Source: Deltaproteobacteria bacterium
GTDB lineage: Bacteria; UBA10199; JACPAL01
NCBI GenBank assembly: GCA_016180845.1
Contig: JACPAK010000001.1
Location: 551,497-615,496, forward strand
Reading direction: 5' to 3'
Length of the DNA stretch: 64,000 bases
This document shows positions 4,833 through 10,703 of the stretch, piece by piece. A model generated the notes under the pieces. The model worked only from the letters and a program-made list of their open reading frames with translations. It made no database searches and was not told the DNA's origin. Every line of letters starts with the position of its first letter. Position 1 is the stretch's first letter. The position numbers were made by a program, and so were the translations under genes.

Positions 4833-5804
4833 ATGAAATTGACCCTTGCCCACAGCCCCGATGCCGATGACGCCTTTATGTTTTATCCCCTCTTTGAGGG
4901 GAAGGTTGACCTTCAAGGCCTGGAGTTCGAAGAGGTTCGCGAGGATATCGAGACCCTGAATCGGAAGTCTGAGGAGGGGGCCTATGATATCAGTGCGATT
5001 TCGCTCCATGTCTATCCAGCGATCCAGGGGAATTATCTCTTGCTCCCGACGGGGGCCTGCTTTGGGGAGAAGTATGGTCCGGTTCTTGTCTCAAATCGTC
5101 AACTCAAACCACGTCAGGTTTTGAGGCTTCGATGCGCGATCCCGGGGAAGAGGACAACCGCCTTTTTGGTCCTCAAATTTTGGGAACGGGCGATCTCAGG
5201 GGAGGGGCGTTCAGGGGTTTCTTATACCGAGGTCCCTTTTGATCAGGTGATGGAGAAGGTGGCGGCGAAACAGATGGATTTAGGTCTCGTGATTCATGAA
5301 GGGCAATTGACCTATACCGAGAAGGGGCTCTTCAAGGTCGTTGATTTGGGGGAGTGGTGGTATTCCCAGACGGAACTTCCTCTGCCTCTCGGTGCTATTG
5401 TTGTACGACGAGGCCTGGATTGGGAGACTCAAAAGAAGGTTTCAGAGGTGATCCAGTCCAGCATTCGGTATGCCTTGGAGCATAAGGAGGAGGCGGTTGC
5501 CTATGCCCTTCCCTTTGCGCGGGGGCTTGATCAAACCAAGGCGGCTGAGTTCATCGGGAAGTATGTCAATGAGATGACGGTGGCGATGGGGCGGCGAGGG
5601 CTGAAGGCGATTCGAGCCCTTTTCGAGAGAGGCTATCGGAATGGTGCTCTCTCCAGACGTGTTGATATGACCGATGCCATCTTGAGTTTCAAAAAAGGTG
5701 TGGAATCTGAACCGGGCGAAATGGGTGATGTTTCACATGAAACAGTGCCGAGTGAGGTTCCAGGTGAGACCCCTTCCGAGATCAAACCAGAAGAATCCCA
5801 TTAA
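4833..5804 (+). CDS. mqnD: 1,4-dihydroxy-6-naphthoate synthase family (MqnD, futalosine menaquinone pathway)
   Basis: The 323-residue protein has the MqnA/MqnD periplasmic-binding-protein fold signature, SPDADDAFMFYPL near residues 8-20, then an ACFGEKYGPV motif typical of the MqnD branch. MqnD converts cyclic de-hypoxanthine futalosine to 1,4-dihydroxy-6-naphthoate. The last 40 or so residues form a Pro/Glu/Ser-rich tail that looks disordered and is not part of the usual domain. The gene stands alone here without other mqn genes. It supports menaquinone as the quinone used by the nearby complex I subunits. The MqnA alternative is less likely. Confidence 0.8.
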   Translation: MKLTLAHSPDADDAFMFYPLFEGKVDLQGLEFEEVREDIETLNRKSEEGAYDISAISLHVYPAIQGNYLLLPTGACFGEKYGPVLVSNRQLKPRQVLRLRCAIPGKRTTAFLVLKFWERAISGEGRSGVSYTEVPFDQVMEKVAAKQMDLGLVIHEGQLTYTEKGLFKVVDLGEWWYSQTELPLPLGAIVVRRGLDWETQKKVSEVIQSSIRYALEHKEEAVAYALPFARGLDQTKAAEFIGKYVNEMTVAMGRRGLKAIRALFERGYRNGALSRRVDMTDAILSFKKGVESEPGEMGDVSHETVPSEVPGETPSEIKPEESH

Positions 5805-5809
5805 TTTTT

Positions 5810-6586
5810 TTATTCGATTTCCCTGCCGGGACCGAACAGTCGGGCCTTCATGAGGTGAAGTTCCCCTTCTTTTTTCTTATTTTTTCGGATCAGGAGTTCA
5901 CCCAAAAGGGTATGGCACGGGACACAGCTGGGGCGGATTTCGATCGCCTTCCGATAAGAATGAATCGCCTCTCCTTCTTCTCCGGCCTCCTCAAGACTTT
6001 TTGCCAAAAAATAATGGGGGAGTGGAGAGTCGCTTGTGTGAGAGGCAACTTCTTGCAGTTTTTTAATCCTCTCATCGCGATCAGCTGTTTCGTAAATTTT
6101 TTCGAGGCTACTCAGTGGATCTGATGACGTTTTGTCTTGTGAGAAAGAGGGGCTGTCCAACGAGCAGATGATCTTGGCCACTGAGTACGATTCAGGGTGG
6201 GCCGGTTCCAGGGACAAAAATTCGTCGAGATGCTCGAGGGCTTTTTTAGAATCATTCAGTTTAAAGGCGTAGATCATCCCCAAATTGTAGTGTGCTTTTG
6301 CATGGTCCTGCTTCTTCTCCAGTATTTTCTCATAGTCTTCGATCGCCAGCGTGTATTCCTCCAGTCCTTGATAGGCGAGCGCTCGTAGAAATCTGGGCTT
6401 TTCATCCTTTGGATTCATTTCGATCAGCATAGAGAGTTCATCGATCGCCTGACGTCTCTGACCATTTTGAATAAGACGTTTCGCTGATTGAAGGTCCTCT
6501 TCGTAGGCAGGTCGGAAGGCAGCCCTCTGTCCCGCCGCACAGCAATTTAAGAAGATCAGAATTAATAAAATAAAAAATTTCACCAT
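5810..6586 (-). CDS. TPR-repeat lipoprotein, last gene of the CsgG-like operon
   Basis: The 258-residue product opens with a hydrophobic signal sequence ending in LNCC at residues 13-16, a plausible lipobox, so it is probably a lipoprotein. Several tetratricopeptide repeats follow, for example around residues 30-130 and 185-250, each with the A-x-Y-x-x-G pattern. Its ATG directly follows the TAA of the CsgG-like gene (TAAATG), indicating coupling. A periplasmic or outer-membrane scaffold for the secretion pore, comparable in position to curli accessory proteins, is inferred. It ends 5 bases from the convergent mqnD. Confidence 0.82.
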   Translation of the reverse strand: MVKFFILLILIFLNCCAAGQRAAFRPAYEEDLQSAKRLIQNGQRRQAIDELSMLIEMNPKDEKPRFLRALAYQGLEEYTLAIEDYEKILEKKQDHAKAHYNLGMIYAFKLNDSKKALEHLDEFLSLEPAHPESYSVAKIICSLDSPSFSQDKTSSDPLSSLEKIYETADRDERIKKLQEVASHTSDSPLPHYFLAKSLEEAGEEGEAIHSYRKAIEIRPSCVPCHTLLGELLIRKNKKKEGELHLMKARLFGPGREIE

Positions 6587-7582
6587 TTACTCCAACATTT
6601 GATAACCGCTTAGAGAGGAAGTTGTTGCCGAAGACGATTCGCTGCGGCCGACAAGACGGACAAGATCGCCAATTCGGGGACGGAAGGGACCTAGAATCTT
6701 GGCCCGTGTGTATTTGAGTTCGATAGCGATCGCCTCGGCGACTCCCAACTCTTTTTCCACCAACCCCAGGATTTCGTTTGTTTCGGGATCGGTCAGGACT
6801 TTTTGGACGGAACTGACACGGAATCGGTCACCGATCTGGAGATCGGCCTTCTTGCCGGCGTCAAAATAGAGGGTGTCCCCCTCCACTTCAATAACCCTCG
6901 CCATCCAGGAAAATTCCTCGGTCCTTTGCTCCACCACTTCGAGGATGAATTGAAGCGCGTCGGAGATCGCGCGGCGCGTTGCCTTGCCCAGAGGTGTTTT
7001 ATAGAAAAGATCACCACCGAACTCGACAAATTTATAATCGACCTTGATACTCGTTGCCCTTTCCCAGGCACGTCCTTGTGCCCGGTGCGAATGGAGGATT
7101 TCCCCTGTTCGTGTATCGATCACGCGGAGATCGATCCCGACATGGGCGGCGACAAACTCACCGCTCACCTTGGGTCCGAAAGATTTTGCCACAGAGACCG
7201 AACCGCCGACGCCGGTCTGGCGTTCTTCAAACTCAGTGACCTCACCGACGATCAGATAATCGACCCCCAAAAGCTGTCCGGCCGGTGTTTGTGTAAAAGG
7301 GGAGGAGAGGTTTGCTTGACCGAGCTCCTGTTCGATCAGGACCTTCGAGAGGATTGCCCGTTCGACGACGACGACCCGCCCACTATCGATGAGGAGCGTG
7401 ACAAGCTGCGCGGCGAGTCCGCCGCCGATGTTCCATCCCCCATAGACAGAGGCAAATCGGTCGGTGGTCCCGAACTGGGATACCGCGACCCGTGCCTTTG
7501 GCCCCTGTTTTGGGAGTGCCGTGGCGTACGTTGGCAGAGCGATCATTACAAAAAATAGTATGTTACGGGCAAAGTCTTTCAT
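6587..7582 (-). CDS. CsgG/HfaB-family outer-membrane secretion pore
   Basis: The 331-residue protein has a Sec signal peptide (cleavage near residue 22, after ATA) and a CsgG domain at about residues 30-230. Visible CsgG hallmarks are VAVSQFG, the invariant VVVER at 71-75, an Ile/Leu-rich EQELG segment and GVDYLIVGEVTEF near 106-118. A C-terminal beta-rich domain (about 235-320) resembles those of non-curli CsgG relatives. Unlike E. coli CsgG there is no lipobox cysteine. CsgG proteins form nonameric outer-membrane pores that export amyloid subunits. The gene overlaps the upstream small-protein gene by 20 bases and abuts the TPR gene, so it is part of one transcript with three small secreted proteins, its likely substrates. 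Confidence 0.88.
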   Translation of the reverse strand: MKDFARNILFFVMIALPTYATALPKQGPKARVAVSQFGTTDRFASVYGGWNIGGGLAAQLVTLLIDSGRVVVVERAILSKVLIEQELGQANLSSPFTQTPAGQLLGVDYLIVGEVTEFEERQTGVGGSVSVAKSFGPKVSGEFVAAHVGIDLRVIDTRTGEILHSHRAQGRAWERATSIKVDYKFVEFGGDLFYKTPLGKATRRAISDALQFILEVVEQRTEEFSWMARVIEVEGDTLYFDAGKKADLQIGDRFRVSSVQKVLTDPETNEILGLVEKELGVAEAIAIELKYTRAKILGPFRPRIGDLVRLVGRSESSSATTSSLSGYQMLE

Positions 7583-7961
7583 TGGGATTCACCACTTGGA
7601 CATTTATGGCCGAGTTAATTGTCCCCTCGTTACTTTCGACATTGACCTCTCCATGGCCCGCCTCGACATTCACACTTCCCGCGATACGATTTTGTTCATC
7701 ATCGATTTCGCGCATTCGCTGTCGCGCCTGTTCTACAGGACTACAAACCATTTGGGTCTGAAGCATGACCGGTTGTTGAATGACACGGACGACGCTCCCT
7801 TCTTCCACCTCCTGTCTCTGGCGCATATTCGAGACGGCATTTTGCAATTCCGGATTGTGCGGATTTGGTTCTAGCGCTAGTGCTGAGGCAGCCAGCAGGA
7901 GTTTCATAAGAACCAATACCGCTGTCTTGCGTGACTTAACTCTTTTTGAATGCCTTTTCAT
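7563..7961 (-). CDS. Small secreted protein C of the CsgG-like operon
   Basis: This 132-residue unrecognised protein has a signal peptide (basic N-terminus, hydrophobic core, cleavage near residue 29 after ALA). The mature part has a charged helical middle with many Gln and Arg, and a C-terminal stretch (96-132) with alternating hydrophobic residues: VNVEAGHGEVNVES, then GTINSAINVQVVN. That stretch aligns with the C-termini of the two proteins upstream. Two cysteines occur in the mature protein. The start overlaps the preceding stop as ATGA and the 3' end overlaps the pore gene by 20 bases. A minor subunit or adaptor role is inferred. Confidence 0.78.
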   Translation of the reverse strand: MKRHSKRVKSRKTAVLVLMKLLLAASALALEPNPHNPELQNAVSNMRQRQEVEEGSVVRVIQQPVMLQTQMVCSPVEQARQRMREIDDEQNRIAGSVNVEAGHGEVNVESNEGTINSAINVQVVNPNERLCP

Positions 7962-8314
7962 TGCTTCATATTCCCCAGGATGATCGTGGAATTTATAGAG
8001 GCATCGATCATGCTGTTGGTTGAATCTTTCATCCCCTTGATTTCGATCTTTTCGTGGCCGACCTGAATATTCATATCCCCCATAATATTCATGCTCGCAT
8101 CTCCGTAATTATGACTCCCGTCCCGGCGATCCGCCTGGTTGTTCTGGGTATTGGTGCTCGGCCCATAGTTCTGAATCGTCCCTTTTTGTGTCGTGTCACC
8201 CATTTGGCATTCCTTGAGGCAGAGGGCGTGAGACAAACCGGGAAAAAGGAAGGAAAAGATTGCCAGCGCACCAATTACTTTTTTTTTAAGTTTTATTTTG
8301 TTTCGTGCCTGCAT
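7958..8314 (-). CDS. Small secreted protein B of the CsgG-like operon, candidate fibre subunit
   Basis: The 118-residue protein has a long basic signal peptide (cleavage near residue 30, after SHA). The mature sequence begins LCLKEC, continues Asn/Gln/Thr-rich, and ends in a 50-residue domain (69-118) with NYGD, MNIQVGHEKIEI and MIDASINSTIILGN. This domain is clearly related to that of protein A. Alternating polar and aliphatic residues suggest beta strands, as in curlin-type amyloid. AAGGAG lies 6-7 bases before the ATG. The gene overlaps the next by 4 bases. No family name is recognised from memory. Confidence 0.78.
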   Translation of the reverse strand: MQARNKIKLKKKVIGALAIFSFLFPGLSHALCLKECQMGDTTQKGTIQNYGPSTNTQNNQADRRDGSHNYGDASMNIMGDMNIQVGHEKIEIKGMKDSTNSMIDASINSTIILGNMKQ

Positions 8315-8340
8315 TTTTCTCTCCTTTTCCCCGGTTTGTC

Positions 8341-8370
8341 CCGGGTTCTCTGAAATCTCGGAGAACCCGG
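8341..8370 (-). promoter_or_regulatory. Stem-loop between the genes for proteins A and B
   Basis: CCGGGTTCTC and GAGAACCCGG are perfect 10-base arms, extendable to 13 pairs with one G-U around an AATC loop. No T-run follows on the minus strand, so it is unlikely to be an intrinsic terminator. Located directly after the first gene of the operon, it could protect that message from 3' decay and so raise the level of protein A over downstream products, as known for several fimbrial operons. Confidence 0.6.
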
Positions 8371-8383
8371 AGACTTCACCTTG

Positions 8384-8827
8384 TTAGTTACTGCCGTTGC
8401 CGATCACGAACGTGTTCCCGTTCACCGAGGCATCCATCACGTTGCCGGTTCCACCCGACACGGTCCCGAAGTTTACGGTGTCATGACCTGCTCGGAGATT
8501 CACCTTGTCCTTGAACATCGCGCCGCCGGATCGGTCACCGTACTGCTGTTTGTTGGTCGTATTGTGACTGTTGGCCGTCGATGTGGTCGTGTTCGTGCTC
8601 TGATTGCGACTATCCGACCAGCTTTGGTGGTTGCTCATGTCCCGGCTATCGGTCGTGTTGGTGACACGATGGTCACTGAAATCACGCTTGTCCTGTCGGT
8701 TATCAACCCGCTGATCGTACTTGTTCATGTTGTTGGTGGCGTTGATATTTCCCCAACCCCATGCTGGACCTCCAGCAGCTGCCGTAATCAGGGCAACGAC
8801 AGCGACGCCCGTTTTGATTTTGTTCAT
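8384..8827 (-). CDS. Small secreted Asn-rich protein A, candidate major fibre subunit
   Basis: The start at 8827 is fixed by AAGGAGG at 8843-8837 and gives a 147-residue protein with a signal peptide cleaved near residue 24. The mature protein is extremely rich in Asn, Asp, Ser, Thr and Gln, with no cysteine. Its C-terminal part carries QYGD, VNLRAGHDTVNF and VMDASVNGNTFVIGN, matching protein B. The composition and beta-like periodicity resemble curlin or holdfast-anchor proteins exported by CsgG-type pores, though I cannot name a family. It is first in the operon, behind a sigma-54 promoter and before a stabilising-type hairpin, both suited to high regulated expression. Confidence 0.8.
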   Translation of the reverse strand: MNKIKTGVAVVALITAAAGGPAWGWGNINATNNMNKYDQRVDNRQDKRDFSDHRVTNTTDSRDMSNHQSWSDSRNQSTNTTTSTANSHNTTNKQQYGDRSGGAMFKDKVNLRAGHDTVNFGTVSGGTGNVMDASVNGNTFVIGNGSN

Positions 8828-8857
8828 ACGGTGTATCCTCCTTGAGGAATCTCCCAT

Positions 8858-8873
8858 AGCAAGAGCCGTGCCA
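8858..8873 (-). promoter_or_regulatory. Sigma-54 promoter of the CsgG-like operon
   Basis: On the minus strand TGGCAC (8873-8868), five bases (GGCTC) and TTGCT (8862-8858) match the -24/-12 consensus exactly. The predicted start of transcription is about 8847, giving a 20-base leader that contains the AAGGAGG site of protein A. The geometry of promoter, ribosome binding site and start codon is fully consistent. Confidence 0.85.
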
Positions 8874-8913
8874 TCATCGTCGACCCGCTATTTTCTTTAA
8901 TGGGTGTGATGAC

Positions 8914-8951
8914 CGTCCGATTTCCGGACGCCACCGTCCGAGTTTCGGTCA
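8914..8951 (-). promoter_or_regulatory. Tandem dyads, candidate enhancer-binding-protein sites
   Basis: CGTCCG-N5-CGGACG at 8914-8930 is a perfect dyad. A second, imperfect copy, CGTCCG-N5-CGGTCA, lies at 8935-8951. Their starts are 21 bp apart, two helical turns. They are centred about 75 and 96 bp upstream of the predicted sigma-54 start, the usual range for upstream activating sequences. Confidence 0.6.
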
Positions 8952-9254: not shown

Positions 9255-10703
9255 ATGTTCACTCTCAGGAAAGTTTTTGTTTTCATCGCTGTTGGGATGC
9301 TGGTGATCGCAGCCTCCTTCGGTGGGACCAGTGGTTGCGGAACCTCAGGGACCACGCGGGGGCTTACAGGGACATTAAACTCCTCTTCCCTTTCCGGGTT
9401 AAAAATAAAGGGGGCCACTGTCGCGGTCGCCTGTGAAGAGATCAAGGTCTGCTGTGGCGGCTACGACGGAAAAGTGACTGTCGAGAAGGTGAATAAAGAT
9501 TGTACCTTCAAGATCGACCTTCCTTTGGAGACCTTCTGCTACTGCGCTATTTTTACGGGAGATGATGCCGATAGCAATGACTGTCCTGATACCTACCTAG
9601 CTTCCCTCGGTTGCTCGGAGAATGGCTATGGCGGCGCGATCCCTGTTTTTGCGGGGGCCGATGACAAGACCGATGATATTGATTTGGGGAGCTCGAGTTT
9701 GGAGGGGAGAAAGGTCGTCTCAACAAACAATTACTGCGCCTCTATTGATGAGGACAATGACGGGATCGCGAACTCAACAGATGACAATGACGATGGAGAC
9801 GAGGTTTTGGACAGCACTGACTTTCAGAATGCCAAAGGGTGTGTGAATGCCGACAAACTGGACAGCGATGGCGATGACACCCCCGATATCTATGAAGGTC
9901 TTTGGGGCTCGACCCTTTCTGCGCTGAAGGTCAAGGGGCAGACCGACGGCGAGCTCGACGATTTTTTTGTCGATGCCGATAATGACGACATCCCGGATTT
10001 TTGCGATGCCGATTTTGCCTGTACACCGGATGCCGATGACAGTGATGGCGATTGTATCCCGGACAGCTTCGACTGGTGCAGTGATGACGGGGATGCTGAT
10101 GGGGTTCCGTTCTGTGTCGACTGTGATGACGGAGATGCGACAAGCACTGTAGAATGCTTCGCGGATGATTTCTGTGCGTTGGATGGGGATGGGGATGGGT
10201 ATGGACTCTGCGATGACTGTGACGATTACGATCCGAGCAGCACTTATGAATGTTTTGGCGATGCCTTTTGCGATACGGATGGGGATGCCGATGGCATCGG
10301 ATTCTGTCTCGACTGCGATGATGAGGATGCGACTCAGACGACGCAGTGCTATGAGGATATCGAGAACTTCTGTGATCAGGACAATGACAATGATGACATT
10401 GGAATTTGTGCCGATTGCGATGACTTCGATTCGACCTCGAAGACGGAGTGTTACGGGGCGGAGGCGTGTGCTGATGATGTCGATGGTGATGGGGTCAACT
10501 TCTGCAACGACTGCGACGACCTCGATGTGACGATCAAGACAACAATCGCCGAAGGGTGTCCTGTGGCTGCCGGCGCTTGTGAGACATCAGAATGTGTCAA
10601 CGATTTCGAATGTCAGCTCTTTGCCGATGACAATCAGAACGATGAGTTCAAGACCGACAATGTTCAGTGTAATCTGACAACCGGTTGCTGTGAACTCAAG
10701 TAA
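9255..10703 (+). CDS. Secreted Asp/Cys-rich calcium-binding repeat protein (thrombospondin type-3-like)
   Basis: The 482-residue protein has a signal sequence ending near SGC at residue 28, possibly a lipoprotein although the -3 residue is unusual. After a beta-type N-terminal domain (about 35-155, several Cys), the rest consists of acidic repeats such as DEDNDGI and DADNDDIPD, followed by four related units of about 33-37 residues of the form C-x-D-x-D-x-D-G...C-x-x-CDD. These resemble thrombospondin type-3 calcium-binding repeats with added disulfides. AGGAGG lies 6 bases before the ATG. Role unknown; a calcium-stiffened surface stalk is plausible. It is divergent from the CsgG-like operon and could be functionally linked. 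Confidence 0.8.
   Translation: MFTLRKVFVFIAVGMLVIAASFGGTSGCGTSGTTRGLTGTLNSSSLSGLKIKGATVAVACEEIKVCCGGYDGKVTVEKVNKDCTFKIDLPLETFCYCAIFTGDDADSNDCPDTYLASLGCSENGYGGAIPVFAGADDKTDDIDLGSSSLEGRKVVSTNNYCASIDEDNDGIANSTDDNDDGDEVLDSTDFQNAKGCVNADKLDSDGDDTPDIYEGLWGSTLSALKVKGQTDGELDDFFVDADNDDIPDFCDADFACTPDADDSDGDCIPDSFDWCSDDGDADGVPFCVDCDDGDATSTVECFADDFCALDGDGDGYGLCDDCDDYDPSSTYECFGDAFCDTDGDADGIGFCLDCDDEDATQTTQCYEDIENFCDQDNDNDDIGICADCDDFDSTSKTECYGAEACADDVDGDGVNFCNDCDDLDVTIKTTIAEGCPVAAGACETSECVNDFECQLFADDNQNDEFKTDNVQCNLTTGCCELK

Follow-up and report, generated by a model that had tools for sequence, protein, structure and literature searches.

A conserved operon around a CsgG-family pore, a candidate surface-protein export locus found in two bacterial phyla

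We analysed a stretch of 64,000 nucleotides (hereafter the window) from an assembly labelled Deltaproteobacteria bacterium (GCA_016180845.1, contig JACPAK010000001.1, positions 551,497 to 615,496), in which five genes form a minus-strand operon spanning positions 8827 to 5810. A preliminary description of this DNA had proposed an operon of three small secreted proteins (here A, B and C), a CsgG-type pore and a tetratricopeptide repeat (TPR) protein; all five open reading frames (ORFs) were found, and the pore was confirmed by its match to the Pfam CsgG family (PF03783; 3e-30, 105.4 bits, cut-off 20.8). The operon and its upstream region comprise the following features:

8911-8940, minus strand: candidate activator-binding dyads GGACGGTGGCGTCCGGAAATCGGACGG, with the core CCGGAAATCGG at 8927-8917
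8873-8858, minus strand: sigma-54 -24/-12 promoter TGGCACGGCTCTTGCT, a perfect consensus
8384-8827, minus strand: gene A, with a signal peptide, a Trp-containing mature N-terminus, an Asn/Asp/Ser/Thr-rich middle and a C-terminal module
7958-8314, minus strand: gene B, with a signal peptide followed directly by a CLxxxC-type Cys pair, and the C-terminal module GDxNIxVGH...IDASI.STIILG
7563-7961, minus strand: gene C, with a helical region, invariant Cys 73 and 131 and a C-terminal module; always immediately 5' of the pore
6587-7582, minus strand: CsgG-family pore that lacks a lipobox and carries about 100 extra residues as a C-terminal domain, which is weakly FlgT_C/TsaP-like
5810-6586, minus strand: TPR protein whose leader resembles that of a lipoprotein; a candidate for a pilotin or an assembly factor

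Gene A starts at the ATG at 8827, which is preceded by AAGGAGG; a longer ORF starting at 8857 was disfavoured, because this start would coincide with the -12 element of the promoter. Genes B and C overlap by 4 bp, C and the pore gene overlap by 20 bp, and the gap between the pore and TPR genes is 0 bp. The abutting or overlapping starts initially proposed therefore hold for these three junctions but not for A and B, which are separated by 69 bp. The signal-peptide-like leaders of A, B and C were judged by eye.

The match of the pore to PF03783 extends over positions 3-205 of the 210 in the model, including the part carrying the transmembrane hairpins in E. coli, and it is the only such match in the 2.1 Mb genome. 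A profile of the pore family also matched CsgG structures (E 8e-6). The pore contains no Cys and therefore no lipobox, and the lipobox Cys was lacking in 12 of 12 pores, in agreement with the earlier observation that this protein differs from E. coli CsgG. The similarities of its C-terminal domain to FlgT_C (E 0.0017 at locus L041 and 0.048 here) were under the Pfam cut-offs, as was the weak score of the pore with FlgT_M, the model of the middle domain of FlgT (E 0.0014); comparison of the C-terminal domain with TsaP-type structures gave E values of 0.015 and 0.064.

Among 99 related genomes, close pore orthologs (58-73% identical) were found only in the window's class, a group of metagenome-assembled genomes labelled 'Deltaproteobacteria', in which 8 of the 46 genomes contain 10 copies. 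The profile search with gene C returned the same 8 genomes and 10 copies, matching the pore copy for copy, and gene C was absent from about 340 other genomes outside the class. The nine other class copies (L041-L049) keep the order A-B-C-pore-TPR as far as their contigs reach, with a gene for an FHA membrane protein between the last two in some; one class locus carries two A genes. In a scan of one genome per species (84,980 species), further pore orthologs (52% identity) were confined to Nitrospirota, among them the manganese-oxidising group Candidatus Manganitrophus. The arrangement of these Nitrospirota loci is alike: genes for two or three small CLxxC proteins come together with C, the pore, sigma-54 activators, a Ser/Thr kinase and a TPR lipoprotein to which a trypsin-like domain is fused. 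A search of this phylum recovered gene C in 6 of 296 genomes, together with three further divergent loci, one of which (L097) has an Asn-rich A-like gene, C, the pore and an activator.

Across the two phyla, all 18 loci have C immediately 5' of the pore and substrate-like secreted genes ahead of C. C and the pore occur once per locus, whereas A/B-type genes number one to three. Co-occurrence with the pore had been named beforehand as a test of the proposal, and both the identical genome distribution of C and the pore and their constant adjacency bear it out. Distant CsgG matches in other phyla (L050-L052 and L054) were excluded, being without A, B and C and lying amid unrelated genes. No pilus or flagellar genes were present within the loci read. 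The gene set was not found described in open-licence PMC papers, nor was any such paper found that deals with both Manganitrophus and CsgG.

Some loci show further features. At L049 (genome G030, 5931-7241), the genes for A, B and C are intact, but those for the pore and the TPR protein carry frameshifts or are cut short, reflecting either decay or an assembly error. The cassette may extend further in Nitrospirota: at L065-L067 and L096, two more genes come after the kinase gene in a conserved order, one for a thioredoxin-like protein with TPRs and one for another lipoprotein that is LpoB/CsgG-like. Two lipoprotein genes at L042 (3080-4912, minus strand, promoter at 4993) diverge from the operon behind a sigma-54 site of their own; one of the encoded proteins ends in an Asn-rich tail (NSNNNNSVTIINGNNNN), and these may be extra substrates. 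In the window, a divergent gene (9255-10703, plus strand) encodes a secreted, likely lipidated protein of 482 residues with Asp-rich DxDxDG/Cys repeats of the calcium-binding type; it had no Pfam match and was not seen adjoining the operon in relatives.

The small proteins had been placed outside the known curli and holdfast families, and scans of every A, B and C homolog accordingly matched no Pfam or NCBIfam family. The profiles of B and C, compared with the PDB, returned chance matches only. The description of these proteins as Asn/Gln-rich needs to be narrowed: Asn accounts for 12-21% of the mature part in the gene A family, against a mean of 3.3% in 59 ORFs of the window, but A is not Gln-rich, and B and C have about 9% Asn. 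Orthologs of A are 22-41% identical within the window's class and those of B are 33-47% identical, with both Cys residues of B invariant in 21 of 21 sequences from both phyla; C has 11 invariant columns in 15 sequences from the two phyla. Profile comparisons aligned the last 45-50 residues of B with those of A (hhalign E 8e-11) and with those of C (E 3e-7). With the signal peptides removed, the scores were 63 (B-A) and 39 (B-C), against maxima of 15 and 20, respectively, for 60 column-shuffled B profiles and values of 11 and 15 for the reversed profile. Given that these links lie far above the shuffles, the three small proteins appear to carry one common C-terminal module (about 45-50 residues) joined to differing N-termini, Asn-rich in A, with a CxxxC motif in B and with a helix plus Cys in C. 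Gene A showed no internal repeat signal, no curlin repeat and no significant hydrophobic periodicity; such periodicity was considered as a sign of a beta-solenoid and dropped, as a single protein out of 12 reached nominal significance (p 0.02, no multiplicity correction).

The promoter TGGCACGGCTCTTGCT begins 46 bp upstream of the gene A start, and perfect sigma-54 consensus sites are rare in the 2.1 Mb genome (7, versus 1 for the reversed control). The proposed sigma-54 control was corroborated by the relatives: every one of the 15 loci checked had TGGCA[CT]-N6-TG or a near form ahead of its first small gene, no more than about 122 bp away, where about 0.012 would be expected per 130 bp, with a -12 half that is degenerate at some loci (TTGAA, TTGGA). 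At L096, each of three paralogs has its own identical sigma-54 promoter. The two marks of a sigma-54 regulon, the promoter and an AAA+ activator, were both found, with PF00158 activators adjoining 7 of 18 loci and Ser/Thr kinases 8 of 18; the adjoining activators contain FHA domains or are other AAA+ proteins. The dyad near CGAAAATCG is a candidate activator site. The pattern [TCA][CT]G[AG]AAATCG[AG] had 10 matches in 331 kb of strand from 10 loci, 6 of them on the operon strand at 4 loci, at distances of 100-203 bp ahead of gene A, and twice in tandem about 20 bp apart, figures whose significance is indicative only because the pattern was chosen after viewing these regions. Several other perfect TGGCACGNNNNTTGCT sites (loci L105, L106, L107, L109 and L110 of G000) adjoin genes for secreted or lipoprotein-like surface proteins, which suggests that sigma-54 in this genome governs an outer-surface regulon.

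The TPR protein matched TPR families (up to 2e-16) and, below the cut-offs, MamA and PilW (52 bits versus 154 for the PilW model). It had been described as a lipoprotein, and its leader is lipoprotein-like, but the lipobox here is atypical (FLNCC); most orthologs carry a regular one. In nearly all loci with a long enough contig, its gene comes directly after the pore gene, or after the FHA gene where one intervenes. Secretins are placed in the outer membrane by TPR pilotins. Since the pores studied here have no lipobox, whereas the adjoining TPR protein usually has one, we infer that the TPR protein may help to place the pore in the outer membrane.

In a survey of curli systems, curli were defined by curlin-repeat subunits and CsgE/F-type helpers, and many matches to the CsgG model were paralogs belonging to a larger family (PMC3521004). 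The operon resembles curli (csgBAC/csgDEFG, type VIII secretion) in its CsgG-family outer-membrane pore, in the small Sec-exported proteins encoded alongside and in the paralogy of two of them (A and B here, CsgA and CsgB there). It differs in the lack of curlin repeats, in a pore without a lipobox and with an extra C-terminal domain, in the TPR lipoprotein and in the sigma-54 promoter. Curlin repeats (PF07012) were found neither in the A, B and C members nor in any of the 46 class genomes, and the E. coli control matched. CsgC, CsgE, CsgF and CsgH had no match among the operon proteins, and CsgE, CsgF and CsgH had none in all A, B and C members, the scope being these proteins rather than whole genomes; none of A, B and C matched curlin, CsgE, CsgF or any PDB entry. 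In Caulobacter, small proteins that form multimers depend on the CsgG-like HfaB for their placement on the cell surface (PMC6707917). The holdfast anchor HfaA/HfaB/HfaD thus resembles our operon in combining a CsgG-like pore with small proteins, and HfaB was the best NCBIfam match of the pore (NF037935, 5.9e-9). However, this match reached 35.5 bits against a cut-off of 300, that to the CsgG equivalog PRK15184 reached 18.9 bits against 505, and the gene set and promoter type are unlike those of the anchor. No A, B or C member had an NCBIfam or Pfam match to HfaA or HfaD, the presence of models for these two in the libraries being unconfirmed. By these tests, the operon is not a member of the curli or holdfast anchor systems, and it may work like either. 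The Fap amyloid operon of Pseudomonas (FapA-F) likewise exports small surface proteins via a dedicated outer-membrane channel, but FapF is unrelated to CsgG, and gene C matched it at chance level only (E 0.14).

We consider it fairly probable that the operon encodes a dedicated outer-membrane export and surface-assembly system on a CsgG-family pore, and the best reading of these comparisons is a third kind of CsgG-pore system beside curli and the holdfast anchor. In this reading, the operon would be turned on from its -24/-12 promoter by a sigma-54 activator of the FHA or another type, which probably belongs to the pathway of a Ser/Thr kinase. A, B and C would cross the inner membrane via their Sec signal peptides, and the TPR lipoprotein would help the pore, which unlike E. 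coli CsgG is not lipidatable, to reach the outer membrane or to stay there. C never parts from the pore and, like it, is single-copy, but the number of A and B genes varies; this contrast points to C and the pore as parts of the machine and to A and B as exported subunits. C would then be the partner of the pore (adaptor or anchor), and A and B would leave through the pore to be assembled at the cell surface via the module they have in common with C. The recurrence of the cassette in two phyla argues that it is real; it appears to be a relative of the curli and holdfast systems that has not been described before. The preliminary proposal of a new amyloid or surface-fibre locus is therefore well supported by comparative genomics as regards surface-protein export, but its amyloid fibre is not yet supported, as there is neither a curlin repeat nor significant hydrophobic periodicity in A. 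We would be hesitant to go as far as a third, independent CsgG-pore system of two phyla with a non-lipidated pore delivered by a TPR pilotin, paralogous Asn-rich subunits polymerising into a new surface fibre and FHA/kinase-sigma-54 control, a tentative combination that is somewhat improbable as a whole.

Several observations weigh against an export and assembly system. Most of the class does not have it, and the best match to the FHA activator in the window's genome (47%) is on another contig, unlinked to the operon. No fibre repeat could be recognised in A or B, and no direct profile link was found between A and C, so their relation rests on B. AlphaFold models of B and C (mean predicted local distance difference test scores of 49 and 59, respectively) were too poor to interpret, and no fold search was made with them for this reason. 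Furthermore, CsgG-family proteins can also be periplasmic lipoproteins not known as exporters. A rival reading is a non-exporting envelope complex, in which a periplasmic or outer-membrane ring of the CsgG family, like the FlgT or TsaP accessory rings, would have A, B and C as periplasmic subunits. The weak likeness of the pore's C-terminal domain to FlgT_C and TsaP, the PilW/MamA-type matches of the TPR protein and the conserved Cys residues of B and C, which suit an oxidising periplasm, are consistent with this possibility. We nevertheless regard it as unlikely, because the CsgG core is matched across the hairpin region, flagellar and pilus context is lacking and free variation in the number of small genes would be odd for a fixed ring.

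The same variation fits a stronger form of the export and assembly reading, a true equivalent of curli with A as the major amyloid subunit, B as the nucleator and C as a CsgF-like tether. In its favour, amyloid is what CsgG-type pores are known to export, the module shared by two of the putative subunits marks these as paralogs, like CsgB and CsgA, and A is Asn-rich. However, a high Asn content alone is no proof of amyloid, the structure models are unusable, and neither curlin repeats in the class nor an internal repeat signal were found, so we view an amyloid as possible but doubtful. Diffusible or contact-dependent effectors, such as signals or bacteriocin-like proteins, might also be exported by the pore in place of structural material, given that the secreted proteins are small, paralogous and variable, with separate promoters. 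The lack of an immunity-like partner gene for each copy, the assembly-like module shared by A, B and C and a composition low in hydrophobic residues, as in matrix proteins, make this quite improbable. Finally, the weak HfaB and CsgG scores could be taken as traces of a curli or holdfast operon with subunits changed past recognition, but they are far under the cut-offs, the accessory families were unseen in the operon, and regulation, pore lipidation and the added pore domain all differ, so that such an origin appears very improbable.

CsgG-family genes are often used as curli markers, and we know of no exported partners for most members of the family. The locus described here provides a CsgG-family pore with a conserved partner set, characterised by a shared module and a one-to-one companion, C, and present also in Candidatus Manganitrophus. 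If export by this pore is true, it would add a third CsgG-pore pathway, show how a CsgG-type pore can work without a lipid anchor of its own, and supply a nanopore and novel small proteins to work on materials and sensing.

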